Virus record (IMG/VR): IMGVR_UViG_3300005529_000654
Location: 1 to 33,219 of that record
Direction: 5' to 3' (one strand)
Origin: a virus
DNA length: 33,219 bases
Part shown: piece by piece, positions 1 through 29,399 of the stretch
Layout of the letters: each line of letters opens with the position of its first letter
Numbering within the stretch: position 1 is the first letter of the stretch
Program-made: the position numbers and the translations under genes
The notes under the pieces: generated by a model
The model's input: the letters and a program-made list of their open reading frames with translations, nothing else
Told to the model about the DNA's origin: nothing
The model's database searches: none

Positions 1-300
1 TAATGCATAATGAAGGATTGCACTCACGGTGCGCGGCTCGCTAATCGGCGTCGCTGTGAGACTAGCTCGCAGTTCGTCAAAGGCGTTCACGAAACGTGGC
101 GATGCTCTGAGTCCCCCAGATTCCACACGCTTCACATAGGCGCGTGAGAAGGTTGTCCCCTTGCTCGCGTCTTTGATTAAATGTTTGGCAAGTTCGTTCG
201 CGCTCAGTCGGTGCGTCTTGCGAAAAGCGCGCACTTCTACCCCACGCAAGAAACGGGTCAACATGAGTTTTTGAGGTTGGCTGTGCATATTTCTAACCAT
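1..300 (-). CDS. XRE-type helix-turn-helix regulator, partial
   Basis: The minus frame is open from an ATG at 300 to base 1 with no stop, so 100 codons are visible and the C-terminus lies outside the window. Residues about 18-75 match the lambda-repressor-like HTH pattern: RAFRKTHRLSANELAKHL, then a recognition-helix-like SRAYVKRVESG and SPRFVNAF. Such proteins are DNA-binding repressors or activators of mobile elements. A second in-frame ATG lies at 286, and neither start has a clear Shine-Dalgarno. It is separated from the upstream operon by the terminator at 402-431, so it is probably transcribed on its own. Its target is unknown; it is a candidate control gene of the accessory module. Confidence 0.75.
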   Translation of the reverse strand, partial: MVRNMHSQPQKLMLTRFLRGVEVRAFRKTHRLSANELAKHLIKDASKGTTFSRAYVKRVESGGLRASPRFVNAFDELRASLTATPISEPRTVSAILHYAL

Positions 301-441: not shown

Positions 442-828
442 CTAGTTGATGTGTTCTATCAGGTCGAACAAGTCCACGTTGCGTAAGGCGAATGGCACAT
501 CGCTGGCGGCGAGTTCGTCCACGTCTTTGAATTCCAATTCGACTTGTGCCGCGATAGCCTGCAACAATTCATCAAGGACTACGGGCGCAAGTTCGCGGAA
601 CAATTCATCGGCGCGCTCCCATGCGTGTAGCTTTGCCTTGCTGTGCTTGACGACGTTCGGGTGATGGGTCAATTCAAGGTCGTACCTCTCGTTTCGCATT
701 TGTGCGGCAAGCCAGTTGATGTAGCAATTGGTCAGCAGGGGTGTTGTGTTGGCAACGGACTGCATCAGCGAATCCTTGAACGCTTGAACTTGGCTTTCAG
801 TTTTGAGAATGAGAGTTTGCTTTTTCAT
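442..828 (-). CDS. Hypothetical acidic helical protein of accessory operon
   Basis: 128 aa, starting MKKQTLILKTESQVQAFKDS. The ATG at 828 is chosen over an in-frame start at 861 because AGGAG (837-841) sits 8 nt upstream and because the ATG overlaps the stop of the preceding gene as ATGA, a coupling arrangement. The protein is soluble, rich in Glu, Asp, Leu and Ala, and predicted mostly helical; I see no catalytic motif, cysteine pair or membrane segment. It is the last gene of the operon that begins with the zinc-ribbon protein (1714-1953) and is followed by a terminator. Function unknown. Its position after two nuclease-like genes suggests an accessory or regulatory role in the same element, which is inference only. 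Confidence 0.7.
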   Translation of the reverse strand: MKKQTLILKTESQVQAFKDSLMQSVANTTPLLTNCYINWLAAQMRNERYDLELTHHPNVVKHSKAKLHAWERADELFRELAPVVLDELLQAIAAQVELEFKDVDELAASDVPFALRNVDLFDLIEHIN

Positions 829-1713: not shown

Positions 1714-1953
1714 TTAGGCGTCGAGTTCATCGGGGAATTCGGTGCGCTGGGGTCGTGCGGCTTGCGCTTGCTGCTCCCGTGCCGCGAGGATTTGCTCGGA
1801 GCGTTCGCGTTCGGCTTGGAGCTGTGTGGCGCGTTGGCGGGCGTGTGCGGCAAGGTGAATCGGACACAAGACACCCAGACCGACAAAGGACGCGCCACAA
1901 ATGCGACAATGGCGCGGGTGGTATCCTGTCGAAAACGGTGCGGGGTGTAACAT
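1714..1953 (-). CDS. Small zinc-ribbon/coiled-coil protein, first gene of a switch-controlled operon
   Basis: 79 aa. Residues about 15-35 (HCRICGASFVGLGVLCPIH) carry C-x2-C and C-x2-H pairs that could bind one zinc. The rest is a charged Gln/Arg/Glu/Ala helix likely to form a coiled coil. The ATG at 1953 is preceded 5 nt upstream by a perfect AAGGAGG, which is itself part of a 10-bp inverted repeat that can hide it (see leader). The gene heads an operon with the HNH, GIY-YIG-like and 128-aa genes; the HNH frame may begin inside or just after it. No relative is recognised. Control by an antisense RNA suggests that its level matters to the element, but the role is unknown. Confidence 0.65.
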   Translation of the reverse strand: MLHPAPFSTGYHPRHCRICGASFVGLGVLCPIHLAAHARQRATQLQAERERSEQILAAREQQAQAARPQRTEFPDELDA

Positions 1954-2087
1954 AAATGCCTCCTTCGGCTAGACACCGTTGGAGGCATTTGCTATACTCC
2001 GCAGCAGTCTCCAACGTGGTCACTTCACGTTTGGGGATTAGCCGTTAGAGAGTGCTCCACCACTCCCTAGCGGCGTTTTTATTGGAC
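1954..2087 (-). promoter_or_regulatory. Switch-like mRNA leader that can hide the ribosome binding site
   Basis: In the minus-strand leader, segment C (1963-1954, containing GGAGG and ending next to the ATG) is perfectly complementary over 10 bp to segment B (1990-1981), with a 17-nt loop, so B:C hides the ribosome site. Segment A (2016-2009) is perfectly complementary over 8 bp to 1984-1977, which overlaps B. A:B and B:C therefore exclude each other, and A:B frees the ribosome site. A further 14-bp hairpin (2074-2041) lies near the 5' end. The sequence shows the pairings; the switching behaviour is inference. Confidence 0.7.
2005..2080 (+). ncRNA. Predicted antisense RNA (about 76 nt) against the operon leader
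   Basis: A plus-strand sigma-70-like promoter, TAGACA (1970-1975) - 17 nt - TATACT (1993-1998), places a start near 2005. A strong terminator follows: arms 2041-2054 and 2061-2074 (14 bp with two non-Watson-Crick positions, 6-nt loop CTCCAC), then GTTTTT to 2080. No protein frame fits between them. The RNA is fully complementary to the 5' part of the minus-strand leader, including segment A (2009-2016), the strand that would otherwise free the ribosome site. By analogy with plasmid copy-control RNAs and phage c4/CI immunity RNAs, it should repress translation of the operon. Promoter and terminator are seen; the function is inferred. Confidence 0.65.
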
Positions 2088-2093
2088 ACACTG

Positions 2094-2139
2094 ATTATAG
2101 TCCATTCAGTGGTCAATGTCAATAGTCCATTTAATGGAC
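2094..2139 (-). promoter_or_regulatory. Consensus sigma-70 promoter with two palindromic operators
   Basis: On the minus strand TTGACA (2122-2117) and TATAAT (2099-2094) are separated by exactly 17 nt, a perfect consensus promoter for the operon starting at 1953; the transcript should begin near 2087. A perfect 7-1-7 palindrome, GTCCATTTAATGGAC (2125-2139), abuts the -35 box. A degenerate copy, GTCCATTCAGTGGTC (2100-2114), fills the spacer; centres are 25 bp apart. A repressor dimer at these sites would block the polymerase. The XRE protein (1-300) and the HTH protein (2188-2415) are the candidate binders visible here. Confidence 0.75.
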
Positions 2140-2187: not shown

Positions 2188-2415
2188 TTATTTCGTTGCG
2201 GCTGCCAGTTTTGGCTTTCCACTGCCGGGCTGTCCGCTCGGTGCTTTGCTCCGGTAGTATTCCTCAATGGATGGCTTGAACACGAGCCATGTTCGCCCCA
2301 CCTGTTGCGCTTCAAGTTTGCCGCGTGCGATAAGGTGATTCACCGTATTAACTTGAATTCCCAAGAGGTCGGCGGCTTCGCGGGTAGTGCAATAGTCCTT
2401 AAGAATTTCACTCAT
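2188..2415 (-). CDS. Excisionase/MerR-type helix-turn-helix protein
   Basis: 75 aa from ATG 2415, chosen because AGGAG lies 9 nt upstream; a longer in-frame start at 2529 adds a basic, unconserved extension and has no good ribosome site. Residues 8-55 (CTTREAADLLGIQVNTVNHL...GRTWLVFKPSIEEYY) are the classic HTH_17/excisionase pattern: helix-turn-helix, then a wing with GR.W...IE.Y. Family members either assist phage-type excision or act as small repressors. It lies between tRNA-Leu and the switch-controlled operon and has its own terminator. It could be the recombination directionality factor of an element integrated at the tRNA, or the repressor of the palindromic operators; the sequence does not decide. 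Confidence 0.8.
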   Translation of the reverse strand: MSEILKDYCTTREAADLLGIQVNTVNHLIARGKLEAQQVGRTWLVFKPSIEEYYRSKAPSGQPGSGKPKLAAATK

Positions 2416-2604
2416 CGGCGTTTGCTCCTGTGTCAGTGCGGGCGCGCGTGCCACGTTTGCTCGAACGTTGTCCGTTCGTTGTGACGCGCTGCGCCTCTTG
2501 CCGTTTGGGTCGTTTCGCTTCTTTTCCATTGTTCTTTACGTCTGCGCGGTGTCGGTAGTAGGCGGGCGGGACAATCACCAACACCGCCGGGTCTATGCTA
2601 GAGA

Positions 2605-2689
2605 TGGGGCTGAAGGGACTCGAACCCATACGGAGGATCACTCCAGCGGATTTTAAGTCCGCCGCGGCTGCCAATTTCGCCACAGCCCC
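2605..2689 (-). tRNA. tRNA-Leu (anticodon UAA)
   Basis: 85-nt class II tRNA read on the minus strand. Acceptor GGGGCTG pairs with CAGCCCC, the discriminator is A, the T-loop is GGTTCGAGTCC-like, a long variable arm is present, and the anticodon loop CTTAAAA gives anticodon TAA. CCA is not encoded. Its 3' end points to the accessory module at 1-2600, the usual orientation for integration into tRNA 3' ends, but the other attachment site is not in the window. Confidence 0.95.
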
Positions 2690-2732
2690 AATTTTTCCAA
2701 TTGTACTGTCCTTGATTCTTTTGTCAATCTGC

Positions 2733-2769: not shown

Positions 2770-3066
2770 TTGAACACGACCGACGTTGACGCGGAGGAGT
2801 ACGCATTCGGGCGTGCTAGCGAAGAGTGGTCATCGGGTGCAAGCCGCTCCCACCGACGAATGCCGAAGGTCGCCGCCGAGTCCAATTTGCGAACAATGTT
2901 TCACTTTCACTAGCAAATTGCGGGAACGCCCGATACAGCGCAAGAGATAGAGATCAAGTCAGAGCGTAAAAGTTGAATTCTAACTTCTAACCTCTAACTT
3001 CCAGTCTTTAAACAAGGTGGTACCGCGAATCCCTTTCGCCCTTGAGGTGAAAGGGATTTTGTTTTT
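2770..3066 (+). promoter_or_regulatory. T-box leader controlling valS (valine tRNA sensor)
   Basis: Stem I begins around 2785 with an AGTA specifier-loop motif (GGAGTACGC) and contains the GGTGCAAGCC apical motif. Its 3' side reads GAAGGTCG, where GTC (2869-2871) is a Val specifier codon followed by a purine. The T-box proper, AAGGTGGTACCGCG, is at 3014-3027. The terminator hairpin (arms 3028-3037 and 3049-3058, AATCCCTTTC/GAAAGGGATT) is followed by TTTTGTTTTT. Uncharged tRNA-Val should stabilise the antiterminator and switch valS on. The linker holds three tandem 7-nt repeats (2981-3001). Confidence 0.93.
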
Positions 3067-7697: not shown

Positions 7698-7712
7698 CGG
7701 ATAATAAATTCA

Positions 7713-7786
7713 CGTCCTCGGGGAGGCTCGAACTCCCAACCTTTACCTCCGCAGGGTAACGCGCTATCCAATTGCGCTACGAGGAC
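7713..7786 (-). tRNA. tRNA-Arg (anticodon GCG)
   Basis: 74-nt tRNA on the minus strand. Acceptor GTCCTCG pairs with CGAGGAC, discriminator G. The D-arm is GCGC-AATTGGATA-GCGC with the arginine identity base A20, the anticodon stem is TTACC/GGTAA with loop CTGCGGA, and the T-arm is GGGAG-TTCGAGC-CTCCC. The anticodon is therefore GCG, reading CGC/CGU, rather than the usual bacterial ACG that is edited to inosine. CCA is not encoded. Confidence 0.93.
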
Positions 7787-7795
7787 AGACCGAAT

Positions 7796-8136: not shown

Positions 8137-9081
8137 TCAGGCATAGCGCAGATGGGCATCGCGCGCTTCACCGTCCTCATAAATTCCATAAAACTCATGC
8201 GTCACGCGAATCCCGCTATGACCCAGCACTTTAGAAACGGCGGACAGATTTGCACCGCGCCGCAGCATTCGTTTGGCAAGCCGGTGCCGTAGCGCGTGCG
8301 GATTGAATCGCCCGGTCACTCTGGCTCGTTTCGCAATGCGGCGGAATTGCGCATAGATGGTCTTTTCGCATAAGGCAGTGCCGCCACCCTGCCCTGCCAT
8401 GTTGGGAACGGTTGTGAAGGCATGGTCGGTCGTGGGTTGTAACTGAGCACGCACCAACAGCCATTCGTGCATTGCCCGAATCGCTTCAGATTTCAGATAG
8501 ACCGTGCGCGTCTTTCCACCACCCTTGCCCTTTTCCGTGACGATGGCTCGAGCGCAGGAGAGTTCCAGATGTTCCATCTTCAATTTCGCTGCCCCGCCGA
8601 GGCGACAGCCAGTGGACGCGAAAAACCAAAGCAATGCCCGATCTCGAACGCGCTCCGGACTCTCGCCCATCGAGGCATCTAGCATTTTTTGAAAGTCAGC
8701 ATCGGTCATGGTCCGGTTGGAAGTTTCGTGGGTGATTGGAACTTGTTTGAGGCGCGCAGCTGGGTTTGCCGGAATATAACCTTCCTCAAAGAGCCAGCGG
8801 AAGAGCTGCTTGCAGTTGCGTACGTGACCGTGAACGGTGTGCGGTGAAAGGTGTTCCTGGACAAGCTTGCGCCTTCCCTGACCACCATATTTCATGGGGC
8901 GCTCGACCAACATCTTACGCCAGTCACGCAGGTCCGCGAGCGTGATGCTCGCGATGTCACGGTCATGGAAAACGTGTTCGAGTGATTTTAGATAGTGTTT
9001 GTTGATTCTAGCGGTCTTTGCCGTAACGAGTCCCACGCGGGAATCTAAGAAGATTGCAACGGAGTCGGCAACGGTCAGCAT
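8137..9081 (-). CDS. int: Tyrosine recombinase / phage integrase
   Basis: 314 aa. The N-terminal SAM-like core-binding domain (about 1-115; TLADLRDWR, HLSPHTVHGHVRNCKQLFRWL) is followed by the catalytic domain. It carries R160 (STGCRLGGAAKL), K190 (GKGGGKTRTVYL), H262 and R265 (HALRH), H288 (VLGHSG) and nucleophile Y298 (THEFYG). All six active-site positions are present, so it should be active. ATG 9081 is chosen because AGGTGA lies 5 nt upstream; a GTG at 9090 is in frame. It integrates or excises the element and points away from the phage genes toward the damaged tRNA-Ser, the usual layout when the attachment site lies between int and a tRNA. A long hairpin upstream may attenuate it. Confidence 0.95.
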   Translation of the reverse strand: MLTVADSVAIFLDSRVGLVTAKTARINKHYLKSLEHVFHDRDIASITLADLRDWRKMLVERPMKYGGQGRRKLVQEHLSPHTVHGHVRNCKQLFRWLFEEGYIPANPAARLKQVPITHETSNRTMTDADFQKMLDASMGESPERVRDRALLWFFASTGCRLGGAAKLKMEHLELSCARAIVTEKGKGGGKTRTVYLKSEAIRAMHEWLLVRAQLQPTTDHAFTTVPNMAGQGGGTALCEKTIYAQFRRIAKRARVTGRFNPHALRHRLAKRMLRRGANLSAVSKVLGHSGIRVTHEFYGIYEDGEARDAHLRYA

Positions 9082-9104
9082 AGCGATCACCTATCAATCT
9101 TCTG

Positions 9105-20660: not shown

Positions 20661-21308
20661 ATGGCGGTTCTATGCGGAGCGAAAACGCGGGCAGGTGGGA
20701 CTTGCAAACAGCCTGCGCTAACGAACGGGCGCTGTCGCTATCACGGCGGGAAAACGCCGCATGGCGTAGAGTCGCCGCATTTCAAACACGGGCGCTACTC
20801 GAAATATCTGCCAACGAAACTGGCGGCGCGCTACACCGAAGCGGCAGCCGACAAAGATTTGTTGGAGCTCCACGCCGAGATTGCGCTGATTGATGCGCGA
20901 TTGTCCGATGTCTTGGAGCGCATTCACAAGGGCGAAAGCGGCACGCTGTGGGAACAAATTGGTATCGAGTTCGACAAGTTCAAAAGGGCGCAAGTCATCA
21001 AGGACACCGATGAAGCGCGCGCCGCATTAGCAGCCCTCGACCGCTTAATCACCGAAGGGATTGCCGATTACGCGGCGTGGAAAGAAGTCTTTGAGCTCGT
21101 AGAGCAGCGCCGCAAACTGGTGGAAAGCGAGCGCAAGCGCATGGTCGAAATGCAGCAGATGATTTCGATGGAACGGGCGCTCATTTTGATTGGGGCAATT
21201 GGTGAAACGATCCGCCGGCATGTTGCCGATAACCAGTCTCGGCAACGCATCGCCGCCGACATTGCACGACTTGTTGGTAGCGCGCCTAGCACAATCATTG
21301 ACGGATGA
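20661..21308 (+). CDS. terS: HGGXR-motif protein, probable small terminase
   Basis: 215 aa. The N-terminus CGAKTRAGGTCKQPALTNGRCRYHGG is the HGGXR signature (two Cys, CRYHGG) seen in phage proteins encoded next to large terminases; 26 residues shown by position 5-30 with key C, C, C and H. The rest is helical (LLELHAEIALIDARLSDVLERI...) and would suit oligomerisation. Its location immediately before the large terminase and its size support a DNA-recognition subunit role. The terS label is inference from position. Confidence 0.75.
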   Translation: MAVLCGAKTRAGGTCKQPALTNGRCRYHGGKTPHGVESPHFKHGRYSKYLPTKLAARYTEAAADKDLLELHAEIALIDARLSDVLERIHKGESGTLWEQIGIEFDKFKRAQVIKDTDEARAALAALDRLITEGIADYAAWKEVFELVEQRRKLVESERKRMVEMQQMISMERALILIGAIGETIRRHVADNQSRQRIAADIARLVGSAPSTIIDG

Positions 21309-21309
21309 T

Positions 21310-22803
21310 GTGCTTTTCGAGGAGCCGCGCACAAAGAGTCCGCTTCCGTCCAGCACCTTTCAAAAAACATATCGCGCCGACCCGATTGCCTTCACGCACG
21401 ATTGTTTTTATTGGAAGCGGGGTGATGGGCCTGCCTTTTACCAAGACGAGATTCTTGCCGACTTGGTGACATACAAGCGGGAAGCGGTGCGCGGGCCGCA
21501 TGCTCTGGGCAAGACCGCCGCTGCCTCGTGGCTCGTGCTTTGGTTTGCGCTCACGCGCGACGGCGACGATTGGAAGATTCCCACAACCGCCTCGGCGTGG
21601 CGACAGCTCACCAAGTATTTGTGGCCCGAGATTCACAAATGGTCGCGCCGCTTGCGCTGGGACGTGATTGGTCGGGGACCGTTCGATCCACGCTTAGAGC
21701 TGCAAACACTCTCACTGAAACTCGCTACAGGCGAAGCATTCGCGGTCGCGTCGGATGATGAAACGCTCATCGAAGGCGCGCATGCCGACCATCTGCTATA
21801 CATCTTTGATGAAGCCAAGTCCATTAAAGGGGAATTGTTCGATGCGGCAGAGGGGGCATTCGCCAACGCGGGCGAGGACGCGGCAGGCGAGGCGTATGCC
21901 ATTGCCATTTCGACACCGGGTGAACCGAACGGCCGCTTTTACGACATTCACAAGCGCAAGCCGGGCTATGAAGATTGGCATCCAAAGCACGTCACGCTCG
22001 AGGACACGATTCTGGCGGGGCGGGTCAGCCGCGAATGGGCCGAGCAGCGCCGCAAGGAATGGGGCGAGAAAAGCGCGGTCTATCAGAACCGCGTCGTCGG
22101 AGAATTCGCGGCAAGTGAAGCGGACGGCATCATTCCGCTGGCATGGGTTGAGCTCGCGAATGAACGCTGGCACGCCTGGCGCGAGCAAGAGTTCATCGGT
22201 GAGTTTGCTTCGCTCGGGGTAGACGTGGCGCGCTACGGCACGGACAAGACGGTATTCGCGGTGCGCAAGAAAGTGCCGCCGAAAGAAAATCCAGAAGACC
22301 CCAATCCGCCGTGCAAAGAGGGCATTGAGGAATTACGACGCTATTCCAAAGAAGACACGATGGAAGTGGCAGGGCGCGTCAAAGGATTCTTAGATGCGCA
22401 TGGCGGACGCGCGGTGATTGATGTGCTCAATATGGGCGCGGGCGTTGTGGACCGCTTGCGGGAACTGGGGTATGCCGTGCTCGCCTTTAATGCGGGAGAG
22501 CACACCAATGCCAAAGACAAAAGCGGCGAGCTGGGGTTTGTGGATAAACGGGCGCACGCTTGGTGGAATATGCGCGAGCTATTGGATCCCGCGAATGGCG
22601 CGGATATTGCGCTACCGCCAGAGGATACATTGATAGGAGATTTAACCGCGCCGCATTGGCGACCGATGAGCGGCGGCAAGATTCGGGTTGAGAGCAAAGA
22701 CGAACTGCGCAAGCCGGAACGGTTAGGACGTTCGACCGATGACGGAGATGCGGTCGTCATGGCGTTCTATGATGAGCTCGAAGCGGATTGGCTTTTGCAC
22801 TAA
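21310..22803 (+). CDS. terL: Terminase large subunit
   Basis: 497 aa from GTG 21310, one base after the stop of the previous gene; the frame is open further upstream but overlaps terS. The ATPase part has an atypical Walker A RGPHALGKTAAAS (residues about 61-73) and Walker B LLYIFDEAKS near 170. The nuclease part has SLGVDVARYGTDKT (first metal Asp), VIDVLNMGAGVVDRL and a final DDGDAVVMAF. This arrangement fits the ATP-driven DNA packaging motor that cuts and translocates the genome into the prohead. The portal gene follows after 3 nt. Confidence 0.93.
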   Translation: MLFEEPRTKSPLPSSTFQKTYRADPIAFTHDCFYWKRGDGPAFYQDEILADLVTYKREAVRGPHALGKTAAASWLVLWFALTRDGDDWKIPTTASAWRQLTKYLWPEIHKWSRRLRWDVIGRGPFDPRLELQTLSLKLATGEAFAVASDDETLIEGAHADHLLYIFDEAKSIKGELFDAAEGAFANAGEDAAGEAYAIAISTPGEPNGRFYDIHKRKPGYEDWHPKHVTLEDTILAGRVSREWAEQRRKEWGEKSAVYQNRVVGEFAASEADGIIPLAWVELANERWHAWREQEFIGEFASLGVDVARYGTDKTVFAVRKKVPPKENPEDPNPPCKEGIEELRRYSKEDTMEVAGRVKGFLDAHGGRAVIDVLNMGAGVVDRLRELGYAVLAFNAGEHTNAKDKSGELGFVDKRAHAWWNMRELLDPANGADIALPPEDTLIGDLTAPHWRPMSGGKIRVESKDELRKPERLGRSTDDGDAVVMAFYDELEADWLLH

Positions 22804-22806
22804 ACG

Positions 22807-24267
22807 ATGAACTCAAATTCTGCATTGTTCTTTGATGGACTCAAGTCCATTCCCCTCAACGAACTGCCTGAGGAAGCGTGGAAGATTGTTAGTGGCGGCA
22901 GCGGGCAGGGCGAATTGCGGGACGTGTATCGGCAGGTGCCGTGGCTCTTTCGCGGCGTCGAATTGCGCGCGCAAGGCGTCGCGTCACTCCCGTTTGGCGT
23001 GTTCAACGGCAACACCGAAATTGATTCGTCAAAGGACTGGCAGAACAAAGTCGGGTTTCTCCCCGATCCGAAACGCTTGTTCTACCAGCTTGAAGCGTCA
23101 CTGACGCTGGTGAATCGAGCGTATGCGTTCCGCGAATACAACTTGTTGAAGACGTTGAATCTCCGCTATCTCGTGCCGACGACCATCCGTGAAGAGATCA
23201 ACGAAGAGTCGGGAACGATTCAATTCATTCGCTCGCTGGGCGGTCGGACGAAGACCTTAACAACCGACGACATTATTTATTTTTGGAAACCCAGCGCGTT
23301 TACCGAGTTGGGATACAGCGACGATTCGCCCGCGCAAGCGGCATTGAATGCAGCCAATGTTGTTTTGAACCTTGATAAATTCGTATCGCTCTTTTTCAAG
23401 CGCGGCGCGATTAAAGCGACGCTGCTGACCGTCGAGGGCAGTCCGAAGGAACCCGAGAAAGACAAACTCAAGGCTTGGTGGAATCGGATGTTCAGCGGCG
23501 TCAAGGAAGCCTGGCAGACCGAAGTCGTGAATTCCTCCGTCAAGCCTGTGATTGTCGGCGAGGGCGTGAAGGAATTGGAAAACGAAACTCTCACTAATGC
23601 GAAGCGGCAGGACATTGCGACAGCGCTAGGCATTCCGCAGACAAAATTGTTTTCGGATTCCGCGAGTGGGTTAGGTGGCGGTGGGGTTGTCGAGCAAGAC
23701 GATATTCGCTTTTTGAATGACACCATCATTCCCGAAGCGACGTTCATTGCCGACACGCTGAATGAACAGCATTTCCGTCCGTCAGGGCTTTCGCTGCGGT
23801 TCAAGCCCGAAACCCTCGATGCATTCCAAGCGGATGAAGCGGACCGTGCCGGGGCGCTCGATCAATTGGTGTCTGCGATTAACAACGCCGACGATCCCGA
23901 CACGTTGCGCGCGGCAATGATGATTCTCGGGTACGAGATTCCCCAAGAGGTCGAGCCGCTTTTATTCAAGCCGCGCCTGCCCAAGCCGCAGCCACAAGTA
24001 TTGTGGACATCGAATCAACCGCCTGTAGATGTGCGGAATGGCAATGACAATGCCGCGAAGACCGTCATTGGGGCCGAGCTCGTGAAGTGGCAGCGCAAAG
24101 CCATCAAGCATTTGAAAGAGGACCGCCGTGCGGCGTGTGAGTTCGAGAGCGACGCGCTACCGCGCCAGTTGAAATCGGCAATTGCGGGCGCGCTGGAGCA
24201 CTCGACGAACGACGCGCAGGTGCGCGCGGTCTTTACGAATGCGATGCAGTGGGTGAGGTATCCGTGA
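22807..24267 (+). CDS. Phage portal protein (HK97-like)
   Basis: 486 aa. Typical HK97-family portal features: FRGVELRAQGVASLPFGVF near the N-terminus, FYQLEASLTLVNRAYAF, YLVPTTIRE, DDIIYFWKPS and LGIPQTKLFSDSASG followed by EQDDIRFLNDTIIP. The last 100 residues (VIGAELVKWQRKAIKHLKED) are charged and helical and resemble the extension linking the portal to head morphogenesis proteins. It forms the dodecameric vertex for DNA entry and tail joining. Its 3' end overlaps the minus-strand gene at 24233 by 35 nt. Confidence 0.93.
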   Translation: MNSNSALFFDGLKSIPLNELPEEAWKIVSGGSGQGELRDVYRQVPWLFRGVELRAQGVASLPFGVFNGNTEIDSSKDWQNKVGFLPDPKRLFYQLEASLTLVNRAYAFREYNLLKTLNLRYLVPTTIREEINEESGTIQFIRSLGGRTKTLTTDDIIYFWKPSAFTELGYSDDSPAQAALNAANVVLNLDKFVSLFFKRGAIKATLLTVEGSPKEPEKDKLKAWWNRMFSGVKEAWQTEVVNSSVKPVIVGEGVKELENETLTNAKRQDIATALGIPQTKLFSDSASGLGGGGVVEQDDIRFLNDTIIPEATFIADTLNEQHFRPSGLSLRFKPETLDAFQADEADRAGALDQLVSAINNADDPDTLRAAMMILGYEIPQEVEPLLFKPRLPKPQPQVLWTSNQPPVDVRNGNDNAAKTVIGAELVKWQRKAIKHLKEDRRAACEFESDALPRQLKSAIAGALEHSTNDAQVRAVFTNAMQWVRYP

Positions 24268-24603: not shown

Positions 24604-25266
24604 ATGCCCGACTTTAACAATCGCACCGATTGGGAAGACAAGCTATCACGGCAGCTGGCTCGCTTGCAGCAGCGCGAATTAACGCGGCTGATTGAAGCGT
24701 TGGGAGAGCCGCCTTCGCTCGACAACTTGCATCCGGAATTTTGGAATGAGTTCTCGACAACGCTGCGCGGCGAGCTGATTCCCACGCTCGAAAGGATTTT
24801 TCTCGACGGGGCGGAGCAAACGCTTGGCACAACGTCCATCGGCGTGGATTGGGCGCTGATTAACCAAGCCGCCGCGCAATGGGCGCGATCGTACGGCTAC
24901 GACTTGGTGCAGGACATTACGACGAATACGCGCACGGCGCTCCAAGAAAAATTGCCCGCCTATTTTGAGCAAGGGCAAACCATCGGGCAATTGCGGGAGT
25001 CATTACAACCGCTGTTCGGACCGGTGCGCGCCGAGCTCATTGCGACAACCGAAGTCACACGGGCAGCGGTGCAGGGCGAATTGGAAACGGCGCGGCAGAT
25101 TTCGCAAGCGGGCGTGCAGATGGTCGCCATTTGGCAGACCAACAACGATGATTTCGTATGTCCGATCTGCGCGCCGTTGAATCAAAAACGTTACGGCGAC
25201 GGTTGGACGGTGCCCCCGCCCGCGCATCCGCGCTGTAGATGCTGGATTAGTCACGAATTTTCGTGA
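24604..25266 (+). CDS. Phage head morphogenesis protein (SPP1 gp7 / Mu gpF type)
   Basis: 220 aa. The N-terminal 120 residues are helical (LSRQLARLQQRELTRLIEAL...). The C-terminal module is diagnostic: ELIATTEVTRAAVQGE, WQTNNDDFVCPICAPLNQ and PPAHPRCRCWISHE, with Cys pairs C-x2-C and C-x-C. These minor head proteins associate with the portal inside the prohead. It follows the portal as expected, with the moron inserted between. The stop is followed closely by the next gene. Confidence 0.92.
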   Translation: MPDFNNRTDWEDKLSRQLARLQQRELTRLIEALGEPPSLDNLHPEFWNEFSTTLRGELIPTLERIFLDGAEQTLGTTSIGVDWALINQAAAQWARSYGYDLVQDITTNTRTALQEKLPAYFEQGQTIGQLRESLQPLFGPVRAELIATTEVTRAAVQGELETARQISQAGVQMVAIWQTNNDDFVCPICAPLNQKRYGDGWTVPPPAHPRCRCWISHEFS

Positions 25267-25798: not shown

Positions 25799-27970
25799 AT
25801 GCCGTACAAGGTCGAGAAAAAGGGCGACAAGTTCTGTGTCGTCAAAGAGTCGAGTGGCGAAGAGATTGGATGCCATAACACGAAGGGCGCGGCAGAAGAC
25901 CAAATGGCAGCGCTCTATGCCAATGAAAAAAGTGTTCCCAACTTTCACCGCGCGGTGAAATCCATCACCGATGCGCCGAACCTGCGCGACCAAAGCGCGC
26001 AGTCGTGTTGGAGCTGCCAATTCTTTCAACGTGTGGAGGGGGATTGGGAAACGCGGCGCGGCATGTGCCAAAAGTTTGACTTTGAGACGAACGAAAATTG
26101 GGTCTGCGATGCGTGGGAAGAACGCCCAGCCGAACCGTTGCAGGTAGAAGTTGTCGCGGCGGATGGCGATGCCGTGATTGAGATTGATGCCGCGAAAACA
26201 TTGGTGGCCTATGGCGGTGAAATCAAAGCCCTCGAGGGCGGGAAGGTCGGCGGGTATCTCGTGCGGTTTAGCTCTGCCGCGCAACCCGACTTAACCGGCG
26301 ATTACTTTGATGCATCCACCGATTTCGGTTTCCCGAAGGGCGAGACCATCAAATCAGCGGTTTGGTTCAATCATCGCTTGCCGATTGAGACCAAGAATGG
26401 GCGACAGGTCTGGATTAAGGAAAAAATCGGCGACAGCCTTCTTAAACAAGTGGACGACGGTGTATTAATCGAAGCGGTCTTTTACAACCATCAGCGTTAC
26501 GAGAAGATGCTGGGTCAGCTGGGATGGTCAAGCGGCACGGCAGCGCATCTTGTCGAGCGCGAGGCAGTTGGCAAAGCCTATCACGTCAAGCGTTGGCCGC
26601 TGGGACTCGATGCGTCGGTGACGCCAGAACCTGCCGAGCCGCGCAATGAAGTAATTCCACTTAAATCTTTGAAATCGAAACCCCTCACGGGGATTGACGA
26701 TCTACAGGCAACCGCGAAGGACGCGGCGAGCGCGTTAGACGGTGCGACAGATCGTGCAGCGAAAACAAACATTTCGGTTCAGGGAGCAAATGCTCCAACG
26801 GAGGGAAATCCTATGGGTGAAGGAACTCAAACCCAAACAACTGACGCCCGCTACGACGCGCTCGAAAAGGAAATGAAGGCGTACGGCGAACGGGTGGAAA
26901 AATTGCTCAAGTTCATGGAAGACTCGCCCGCGTTGAAAAACGCCGGCTACTTCACACAGGACGGCGGCAAAGCAGATAAAGAGGTCAAGTCGTTCGGTGA
27001 CTTTTTGCTGGCGGTAAAACGCAACGACGTGAAACGCTTGCACGAAGTCTATGGCAGCGTGAAAGCGCAAGGCGAAGACAGTGGTCAGGCAGGCGGTTAT
27101 CTCGTGCCCACCATGTATTCGCCAGAGCTCTTGCAAATCTCGGTGCAGTCGAGTCCGCTTGTTGCGCTTGCATATCGCATTCCCGTCTCGGTGCGGTCCG
27201 GGGAATGGCCGATGCTCGATTATTTCACGACACCGACCGCCGGCGTCGGAAACACTGCGTTCGCGGCAGGCGTCACCGCTGCCAAACGCGCGGAAGGTGG
27301 AGCGTTCGCGGCGACGCAGGCGCAGTTCCAAATGCTCAAGTGGCAGGTCAATTCGGTGGGCGGCATCGTGCCCGTCAATAAAGAATTGAATGCCGATTCG
27401 CCGCAGTCCATCGAAGCGTTGCTAAAAATGCTCTTTGGCATCGCCATCGGCGCGAAGAAAGAATATTTCATGCTGCGCGGGAATGGTGTTGGTGAGCCGT
27501 TAGGCATTATCAATGCGGACTGCACCGTATCGGTGAGCGCCGCAGCGTCGGGAACATTCGCGTATACCGATGCGCTGAAGATGGCAGGGTTCTTGAAGAA
27601 ATTCACGGAAAAGGTGCGATGGGTGCTTCATCCCTCTGACCTCGTGGATTTTGGCGGGGCCTCGTGGACGCAGGGCAATCAGATCATCAAACTGGATGAT
27701 CTCGGTTACGGCTCACCGGTCCTCTCGGAGCACTTGCCCCAAAAGAACAACGCCGGGACCGCGCTGCTTTGCGATTTCGGCGCGTATTTGCTGTTTGAAA
27801 ATGGCGATCTGGAAGTGGCTTATAGCGAGCATGCCTACTTTACGACAGGTCAAGTCGCGTGGCGCTTTGACCAACGCATTGACGGCATGCCGTGGCTCAA
27901 GAACCAAATCACGCTCGCCGATCCGCAAGGCACGTATAAGGTCTCGGCGTTCGTCAAATACAACAATTAA
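25799..27970 (+). CDS. Prohead protease-major capsid protein fusion (HK97 fold)
   Basis: 723 aa, with GGAGGG before ATG. Domain order: 1-43, small domain (GDKFCVVKESSGEEIG...ALYANE); 70-103, Cys cluster C70, C73, C90, C103 (CWSCQFF...MCQKFDF...VCDAW), probably metal-binding; 148-290, serine prohead protease with VGGYLVRFSSAAQPDLTGDY, H192 (NHRLP), S244/S245 (GWSSGTAAH) and SVTPEPAEPR; about 350-385, scaffold-like coiled coil; about 395-723, HK97 capsid (GQAGGYLVPTMYSPELLQ..., AFVKYNN). The protease would cut the scaffold during maturation. A strong in-frame ribosome site at 26800-26813 allows separate capsid synthesis. Confidence 0.9.
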   Translation: MPYKVEKKGDKFCVVKESSGEEIGCHNTKGAAEDQMAALYANEKSVPNFHRAVKSITDAPNLRDQSAQSCWSCQFFQRVEGDWETRRGMCQKFDFETNENWVCDAWEERPAEPLQVEVVAADGDAVIEIDAAKTLVAYGGEIKALEGGKVGGYLVRFSSAAQPDLTGDYFDASTDFGFPKGETIKSAVWFNHRLPIETKNGRQVWIKEKIGDSLLKQVDDGVLIEAVFYNHQRYEKMLGQLGWSSGTAAHLVEREAVGKAYHVKRWPLGLDASVTPEPAEPRNEVIPLKSLKSKPLTGIDDLQATAKDAASALDGATDRAAKTNISVQGANAPTEGNPMGEGTQTQTTDARYDALEKEMKAYGERVEKLLKFMEDSPALKNAGYFTQDGGKADKEVKSFGDFLLAVKRNDVKRLHEVYGSVKAQGEDSGQAGGYLVPTMYSPELLQISVQSSPLVALAYRIPVSVRSGEWPMLDYFTTPTAGVGNTAFAAGVTAAKRAEGGAFAATQAQFQMLKWQVNSVGGIVPVNKELNADSPQSIEALLKMLFGIAIGAKKEYFMLRGNGVGEPLGIINADCTVSVSAAASGTFAYTDALKMAGFLKKFTEKVRWVLHPSDLVDFGGASWTQGNQIIKLDDLGYGSPVLSEHLPQKNNAGTALLCDFGAYLLFENGDLEVAYSEHAYFTTGQVAWRFDQRIDGMPWLKNQITLADPQGTYKVSAFVKYNN
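26813..27970 (+). CDS. Major capsid protein from internal in-frame start
   Basis: ATG 26813 is in the same frame as the 723-aa fusion and has GGAGGG 6 nt upstream, better than most starts in the window. It would yield 385 aa beginning MGEGTQTQTTDARYDALEK, i.e. scaffold-like delta helix plus HK97 capsid fold, the normal length of a free capsid precursor. The ribosome site sits in a linker between protease and capsid, where no protein constraint would be expected to create it. Nested production of protease-capsid and capsid in different amounts is inferred. Confidence 0.65.
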   Translation: MGEGTQTQTTDARYDALEKEMKAYGERVEKLLKFMEDSPALKNAGYFTQDGGKADKEVKSFGDFLLAVKRNDVKRLHEVYGSVKAQGEDSGQAGGYLVPTMYSPELLQISVQSSPLVALAYRIPVSVRSGEWPMLDYFTTPTAGVGNTAFAAGVTAAKRAEGGAFAATQAQFQMLKWQVNSVGGIVPVNKELNADSPQSIEALLKMLFGIAIGAKKEYFMLRGNGVGEPLGIINADCTVSVSAAASGTFAYTDALKMAGFLKKFTEKVRWVLHPSDLVDFGGASWTQGNQIIKLDDLGYGSPVLSEHLPQKNNAGTALLCDFGAYLLFENGDLEVAYSEHAYFTTGQVAWRFDQRIDGMPWLKNQITLADPQGTYKVSAFVKYNN

Positions 27971-28577: not shown

Positions 28578-29399
28578 ATGGCGTATTACAACGAGCTCAC
28601 GACTGTCGCGGACCTACGCGCGGCCTACTTGAATAGCACCAAGTCAACGCAAGACGCATTGATGCTGGACATGATCCGTCAGGCGTGCCGCGAAATCGAA
28701 GAGGCAGCAAACCGGCGGTTTGTGCCGCGCGTGCAGACGCGCCACTTCGATGCAGTTGCCAATATCGAGCGGGAACAGCGCAGGCTTTGGCTCGATGAGG
28801 ACTTGCTTGCCGTGCTCACGTTAACGAATGGCGATGGCACGTTGATTAGTTCCAATCAGTATGTCTTGGAATCGCCCGATGAAACGCCGTATTGGGCAAT
28901 CAAGCTCTTGGCATCGGCGGGCATCGCGTGGACGTACGAAGACGATCCCGAAAATGCAATACTGCTGAATGGCATCTGGGGCTATCACCGTCAATACAGC
29001 GAAGCGTGGGGCGACGTGGGTGCGCAACTCACGGGTGATATCAATTCGACGGTGACCGCGCTTTCGGTGACGAGTGGGATTCTCAAAGCGGGGCAGCTGG
29101 GCAAGATTAGCGATGAGTTCTTTTACTTTAGCGCTGCCAGCGGGGTTAATGCGACAGCGGTGCGCGGCGTCAATGGTTCAACGCCTGCGCTGCATTCTGC
29201 TGGATCCACAATCTACGTCTGGGATGCTGGTCAGCACTTGGAAATGCTCGCGCGCCGTGCCGCCGCGGCCTACTTCAAGCTCCGCGAGAATCCGATTGCG
29301 GACACGATCGTGATTGACGGTCAAACCTTTGCGACGCCCAAGGACGTACTGAAATGGATTGGTGCGCAGCTCGACATGCTGGGACTAGTGAGGAAGTGA
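28578..29399 (+). CDS. Head-tail connector protein
   Basis: 273 aa. The N-terminal part (TVADLRAAYLN, LMLDMIRQACREIEEAANRR) matches the helical start of gp6-like connector proteins, and the C-terminal part (ARRAAAAYFKLRENP, VLKWIGAQLDML) the ending helices. A beta-rich insert (TGDINSTVTALSVTSGIL...) lies between. Connectors of this class sit between portal and tail. Position after capsid and accessory protein agrees. Confidence 0.75.
   Translation: MAYYNELTTVADLRAAYLNSTKSTQDALMLDMIRQACREIEEAANRRFVPRVQTRHFDAVANIEREQRRLWLDEDLLAVLTLTNGDGTLISSNQYVLESPDETPYWAIKLLASAGIAWTYEDDPENAILLNGIWGYHRQYSEAWGDVGAQLTGDINSTVTALSVTSGILKAGQLGKISDEFFYFSAASGVNATAVRGVNGSTPALHSAGSTIYVWDAGQHLEMLARRAAAAYFKLRENPIADTIVIDGQTFATPKDVLKWIGAQLDMLGLVRK

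Follow-up and report, generated by a model that had tools for sequence, protein, structure and literature searches.

The window analyzed here, the whole 33,219-base stretch of IMG/VR record IMGVR_UViG_3300005529_000654, holds near its left end two promoters that face each other across a short leader, which raises the question of how the operon behind that leader is controlled. The most likely answer, in the absence of expression data, was that the first operon is held off by a small opposite-strand RNA transcribed within some 130 bases of the element. The left 2.5 kb of the window was the terminal part of an integrated element adjoining tRNA-Leu (2603-2690, minus strand), and the element carrying the antisense-RNA switch is a mobile element with a Chloroflexota bacterium as host. 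Read outward from the tRNA-Leu, the HTH_17 gene was followed by the leader and then by the zinc-ribbon, HNH/GIY-YIG, 128-aa and Xre-like genes:

2188-2529, minus strand: excisionase-like HTH_17 protein, upstream of the leader; a neighbor kept in relatives
1714-1953, minus strand: zinc-ribbon protein of 79 aa, the first controlled gene; CxxC...C...H, then a 36-residue helix
825-1649, minus strand: HNH gene (HNH_3, E 7e-12), next in the operon; a weak GIY-YIG domain follows in the same frame
442-828, minus strand: 128-aa protein, family unknown, further along the operon
1-300, minus strand: Xre-like HTH protein (HTH_31, 3e-7), truncated by the contig end

The GIY-YIG part of the 825-1649 gene may have its own start at 1139, and no Rep protein was present in the operon as far as the contig extends. 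The 79-aa protein was predicted to be soluble-looking, with a short zinc motif and the 36-residue helix; its C-terminal DELDA was invariant, and the protein was found in only one GTDB family, of Chloroflexota. A BLASTn comparison of the element with phage records gave no match, and no relatives of the 79-aa, 113-aa or 128-aa proteins were found in viral contigs. HNH relatives in viral contigs were too widespread to serve as a guide, and the antisense RNA was absent from all 38 HNH-bearing viral-contig loci searched. A defense role was unsupported, because a PADLOC scan returned only homing-endonuclease and generic HTH matches. Beyond the tRNA-Leu, the valS leader (2770-3060) was T-box-like (AAGGTGGTACCGCGA, then a terminator at 3027-3059), without a report from the Rfam T-box model at gathering.

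The leader itself was resolved into the following parts:

2094-2122, minus strand: sense promoter TTGACA-17-TATAAT of the leader and operon, a 12/12 consensus match
2097-2117 and 2122-2142: two 21-nt palindromic operator-like repeats, over the -10 and -35 of the sense promoter
2041-2074, minus strand: hairpin II of the sense leader, complementary to the terminator hairpin of the antisense RNA
2006-2039, minus strand: sense leader hairpin I (the target hairpin, from folding), which contains A
2009-2016, minus strand: A, the pre-emptor, CGTTGGAG, which pairs with 1984-1977
1977-1990, minus strand: B, AAATGCCTCCAACG, partner of either A (via 1984-1977) or C (via 1990-1981)
1954-1963, minus strand: C, GGAGGCATTT, which holds the ribosome-binding site
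1970-1998, plus strand: antisense promoter TAGACA-17-TATACT, facing the sense promoter
2006-2083, plus strand: antisense RNA of about 78 nt, with hairpin I at 2006-2039, hairpin II at 2041-2074, then GTTTTTATT

An earlier, sequence-only reading had proposed an antisense-controlled leader with mutually exclusive hairpins, and its anatomy was confirmed. The pairings it described were exact, 10/10 for C (1963-1954, GGAGGCATTT) with B (1990-1981, AAATGCCTCC) and 8/8 for A (2016-2009, CGTTGGAG) with 1984-1977 (CTCCAACG), and a blind promoter scan recovered both the sense promoter (2122-2094) and the opposite-strand promoter that it had named (1970-1998). Its terminator was present, as hairpin II of the antisense RNA (2041-2074) with the T-run that follows, set off from hairpin I by a spacer; the stem was not the clean 14-bp helix described, having 13 pairs with one mismatch. 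Likewise, the RNA of about 76 nt placed at 2005-2080 exists as a fold, with best bounds of 2006-2083 and a length of about 78 nt. Allowing one bulged base, A:B pairing reached 10-11 bp (2021-2009 with 1984-1972). B imitates the 5' part of the antisense RNA, which starts about 40 nt upstream of the zinc-ribbon ribosome site, and the palindromes at 2097-2142 are probable repressor sites.

Both strands folded far better than expected by chance: free energies were -67.6 kcal/mol for the leader (z -6.3) and -37.3 kcal/mol for the antisense strand (z -6.1), and in neither case was any of 200 shuffles as good. Pairing of A with downstream sequence gave p values of 0.004-0.017 by shuffling, and the downstream hairpin of the window leader had a z of -4.3. 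The evidence that settles the matter beyond chance is that relatives have conserved the device. No T-run followed B:C in the window, leaving no attenuator-formed intrinsic terminator before the gene. As for leader-peptide control, a GTG frame at 2023 overlaps the region; no conserved leader peptide was found, by eye only.

By the mechanism proposed here, the first operon would be transcribed from the repressor-type promoter at 2122-2094, and an antisense attenuator in the leader would provide a second lock. The plus-strand promoter, which looks constitutive, would yield the RNA of about 78 nt, whose two hairpins are complementary to hairpins I and II of the leader. During leader synthesis, A, within hairpin I, would pair with B and keep it off C, and this open A:B state would expose the ribosome-binding site for as long as translation needs to start. 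Once the antisense RNA occupies A, B would be free to pair with C, burying the ribosome-binding site from which the zinc-ribbon protein is translated. In most relatives, the A/B step would govern the formation of an intrinsic terminator ahead of the first gene. It was inferred, not observed, that the RNA is made and that its binding flips the switch. The purpose was inferred as well, and it is likely that early and mobility genes are kept low by a copy-number-sensing RNA, that is, one whose dose tracks the copy number of the element. Judged from sequence comparison and without transcript or binding data, we consider it highly probable that an antisense-RNA attenuator explains the leader of the window and those of its relatives.

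Folding of the growing window transcript predicted A:B at about 112-124 nt, displaced by B:C after C was made. At equilibrium, the closed B:C form of the window was 16 kcal/mol more stable than the open A:B form, while the corresponding gap in the relative L137 was only 2 kcal/mol. With B:C favored by 16 kcal/mol, the open A:B state could be only transient and kinetic, or basal expression would be very low. This kinetic open state is the weakest step of the attenuator argument; in the absence of a kinetic effect, the ribosome site of the window would be hidden even without the antisense RNA.

Three other genomes, all members of a family of six genomes, encoded relatives of the 79-aa protein (66-76% identical), which a whole-genome search recovered; a peptide-pattern search for the zinc ribbon in genome contigs found none. 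Four homologous leaders were compared (L125/L135, L126/L136, L127/L138 and L134/L137). The leader of L134/L137 (G251:C390), whose first protein was 66% identical, was the most similar to that of the window, with A, B and C nearly letter for letter the same (A GTTGGAG, B CTCCAAC, C GGAGGCA). Loss of the A/B/C complementarities in homologous leaders would have spoken against the sequence-only reading; this closest leader keeps them all. In the subgroup of the window, A, B and C were conserved and not covarying, so that the case for pairing there rests on conservation; the RNA of the wider family does covary. In the other three leaders the sequences differed and the logic was kept, one leader using a transcription terminator and not a ribosome-site hairpin. 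By keeping this logic, the homologous leaders supported the antisense-controlled A/B/C reading, with antisense binding itself inferred.

Each of the five leaders (window plus four) combined a shared 5' hairpin and target hairpin with the opposing promoter and the two-hairpin RNA; each also had a sense promoter, usually with surrounding palindromes. When the part covered by the antisense RNA was masked, the ribosome site was hidden in four of the five (window, L134, L126 and L127), and L125 formed an intrinsic terminator abutting the start codon. The attenuator of L135/L125 was a terminator whose T6 end lies directly before the ATG; that of the window and L134 was of the ribosome-site-hiding type. 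The read-out was switched within one protein family (L135/L125 versus the window and L134). The sense-promoter palindromes differed by element (GTCCATTTAATGGAC in the window, TCCACAATATGGA in L127, CCTTAATTATTAAGG in L125 and ACATCAGTTTCCTGATGT in L126), and these may perhaps be element-specific repressor sites, that is, separate immunity groups. The elements of these relatives carry a primase or DnaB-like helicase plus an integrase, and that of L137 also carries a tail tape-measure gene.

A covariance model, R1, was built from the five antisense RNAs (window plus four relatives) and, at E 0.1 or better, had matches in 28 of 396 Anaerolineae genomes, the majority of which lacked the zinc-ribbon gene. 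Alignment of 37 matches, followed by removal of three without an antisense promoter (L186, L202 and L204), left 34 credible members. Re-trained on 32 members, the model (R2) matched 23 of 400 Chloroflexota genomes, giving about 26 members beyond the roughly 34 in Anaerolineae, and had no matches in 80 control loci totaling 1.22 Mb. Loci L223-L228, scoring 31-33 bits and without promoters, were discarded as false matches. In the alignment of 37, 91.9% of cells were paired, compared with 72.0% for shuffled partners and 39-45% for slid partners, and 23 of the 28 base pairs showed double (compensatory) changes. The alignments used for these pair counts were fitted to the structure of the model, which favors that structure, and the paired share was partly built in; double changes at the observed level are not explained by this fitting. 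The second set, left out of the training of R2, showed similar covariation.

The flanking signals were conserved along with the RNA. The antisense promoter matched at least 8/12 positions in 32 of the 34 credible members (mean over all 37, 8.5/12, against 4.7 in shuffles), and the sense promoter at least 9/12 in 28 of 34. An antisense 3' T-run was present in 25 of 34 members, against 12 of 34 at a control position. Within 130 nt downstream, 26 of 34 members had an intrinsic terminator, where 2.2 were expected, and in the second set, terminators were found in 16 of the 20 best members, where 4.0 were expected. Pairing of the attenuator 5' arm with the target hairpin averaged -20.0 kcal/mol for matched loci and -17.5 kcal/mol for mismatched ones; none of 10000 permutations reached the observed locus-specificity (p<1e-4), and the second set gave a p of 0.0006. 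Singly, A:B was significant (<0.05) in just 11 of 34 loci, with clear examples in L180 (GCCAACGGTTCAGGC with GCCTGTCGTTGGC), L176/L179 (GCTGTGGGC with GCCCACAGC) and L230. Both promoters, the conserved two-hairpin RNA, locus-specific A:B complementarity and an attenuator (terminator or ribosome-site hairpin) were established by sequence and comparison, and the homologous loci mark the arrangement as a real, conserved device. Most members are predicted to stop transcription, and the window and its closest relatives to hide the ribosome-binding site.

The genes behind the RNA were diverse. They encoded serine recombinases (L178, L180, L182, L187 and L205), tyrosine recombinases (L194 and L197), an actin-like protein (L174, ALP_N) and DUF6011-type zinc proteins (L177 and L181), in addition to the zinc-ribbon group. 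In other Chloroflexota, antirepressor-like genes of the P22_AR_N or Bro-N type followed the RNA at a distance of a few hundred bases (L216, L232 and L215), at Pfam scores under the curated cut-offs, and the antisense-strand T-run was missing in several of these three loci. The sequence-only reading had noted that the target was not a known antirepressor gene, which is true of the window and does not extend to relatives of the RNA, some of which precede antirepressor-like or recombinase genes. The common thread of the targets is that they are early or mobility genes of mobile elements.

Comparable known systems are found among plasmids. In pSK41, binding of the antisense RNA induces a stem-loop that hides the ribosome-binding site of the rep leader (PMC5703833); the pre-emptor/attenuator arrangement has been described for pT181, pSK41 using ribosome-site hiding instead of termination (PMC5703833). 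The pSK41-type analogy made in the sequence-only reading was the right one. Like pSK41 RNAI (about 80-83 nt, of staphylococcal RepA_N plasmids), the window RNA has two stem-loops, a short spacer and complementarity to its leader, with binding inferred. Unlike pSK41, its target is not a Rep/RepA_N initiator, it belongs to a Chloroflexota mobile element, and loci related to the window swap the ribosome-site hairpin for a terminator. The A, B 5' arm and 3' arm logic of pT181 and pIP501 was the design of 26 of 34 relatives; unlike those plasmids, the window is without a terminator, and the targets are recombinases, zinc-finger proteins and others, not replication initiators. Without expression data, the window RNA is placed by its predicted structure with the pT181/pSK41 copy-number RNAs in how it works, and as distantly SymR-like. 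No Rfam family reached its cut-off in the window or in the members tested, and plasmid ctRNA families gave no match at gathering nor at E<=10. The best sub-threshold match of the window was FinP (RF00107; 23.5 bits), also a two-hairpin antisense RNA; unlike FinP, the window RNA lacks traJ or FinO context and lies far under the gathering score of 45.

SymR is a type I antitoxin, antisense to symE and overlapping the symE start. Its antisense transcript in E. coli has been proven experimentally (PMC1891008). R2 aligned end to end with E. coli SymR (RF01809) from its annotated first base at 36.2 bits, above the ceiling of about 31 bits in 38 Bacillota genomes, where matches of 27-31 bits were treated as noise. 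The R2 family shares with SymR the AGUC start, the spacer GAUUAG and hairpin II GGUGUGUU..GCACA, meeting the criterion of a two-hairpin antisense RNA of about 77 nt with an AGYC start, RUUAG spacer and GUGUU-GCAC hairpin. By recovering a proven antisense RNA, R2 gave independent support for strand, 5' end and shape. The Rfam symR model (cut-off 61 bits) had no match in the window and none over the cut-off in 33 genomes or records (best, 38.3), and symR was the best sub-threshold Rfam match of L230, at 38.2 bits. Unlike SymR, the window RNA faces a zinc-ribbon gene, not a SymE/AbrB-type gene, and would act through an attenuator, not through start-codon overlap.

This match raised the alternative of a type I toxin-antitoxin pair, with the antisense RNA as antitoxin and the 79-aa protein as toxin, as in SymR/SymE. 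That pairing was judged very improbable, as the targets of other members are recombinase, actin-like and antirepressor-like genes, and the 79-aa protein, which looks soluble and combines a zinc-binding motif with a long helix, is encoded at the head of a longer operon with HNH and HTH genes. The same match with SymR, which comes from the antisense strand with the same 5' end, also bears on whether the sense leader is excised and acts on the B region downstream on its own strand, as an immunity RNA of the c4 or P4 CI type. The c4 (P1/P7) and P4 CI RNAs are processed from the same strand as their target, and antirepressor genes are the classical c4 target. In the window, hairpin I of the leader is complementary to B on the same strand, and some distant relatives adjoin antirepressor-like genes as c4 does, which favor such an RNA; against it stand the conserved opposite-strand promoter, the antisense-strand T-run after hairpin II in 25 of 34 members, and the c4 model (RF01695, 45 bits), with nothing over cut-off in the five member genomes tested and no match in the window. 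We regard a c4-like RNA as quite unlikely, and the comparison drawn in the sequence-only reading holds for purpose (a small two-hairpin RNA holding down early genes of a mobile element) and fails for anatomy.

The two RNAs are fully complementary over 78 nt and their promoters converge from about 100 bp apart, which would also suit a mechanism in which duplex formation with RNase III cleavage, or promoter collision, is the main effect and the A/B/C hairpins are secondary. This remains improbable without being negligible, as it would leave without a purpose the conserved placement of a terminator or ribosome-site hairpin and its locus-specific match to hairpin I. That the hairpins arose by chance beside spurious promoters, with no regulation at all, is left standing only by the lack of expression data, and the covariation, the two conserved promoters and the attenuators seen across about 60 loci make it scarcely credible. 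Attenuation by an antisense RNA remained the preferred reading.

A few model plasmids and phages, from Proteobacteria and Bacillota, were the known cases of antisense-RNA attenuation. No description of such an RNA in Chloroflexota or before recombinases was found in the open literature searched, the coverage of which was incomplete, and on that literature alone the switch family is apparently undescribed. As predicted here and untested by experiment, the mechanism is a variant of known attenuators, and the novelty lies in the RNA family itself, the range of its hosts, the genes it targets and the swapping of read-outs. About 60 covarying Chloroflexota members point to attenuation as a control device in general use among integrative and phage-like elements, with site-specific recombinases under its control and terminator and ribosome-site read-outs interchanging among close relatives. 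The SymR link suggests a common origin of a chromosomal toxin-control RNA and mobile-element control RNAs. It is possible, a little short of an even chance, that all belong to one ancient antisense-RNA superfamily, with SymR as one branch, serving as a plug-in off-switch for mobile elements of several phyla. In such a superfamily, the two-hairpin RNA and opposing promoters would be constant, and the read-out and target gene (recombinase, antirepressor, partition-like protein or early zinc-finger operon) would be exchanged. The family also supplies ready-made RNA switches.

Two observations stand apart from these arguments. In a Domibacillus genome (Bacillota), a 30-bit match (L240, 1501-1574), within the range treated as noise, immediately preceded a plasmid-like gene in the neighborhood of a ParA-like gene, and it had the full attenuator architecture, with an 11-nt match between the target hairpin (ACGGTAAACAC) and the terminator arm (GTGTTTACCGT). 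In the window itself, a second, separate tailed prophage without a copy of the antisense RNA occupies 7712-33219, with these features:

7712-7787: tRNA-Arg, adjoined by the integrase
8140-9090, minus strand: tyrosine integrase
21190-22800: terminase large subunit
22807-24264: portal
24604-25263: head morphogenesis
25799-27967: major capsid
28578-29396: head-tail adaptor
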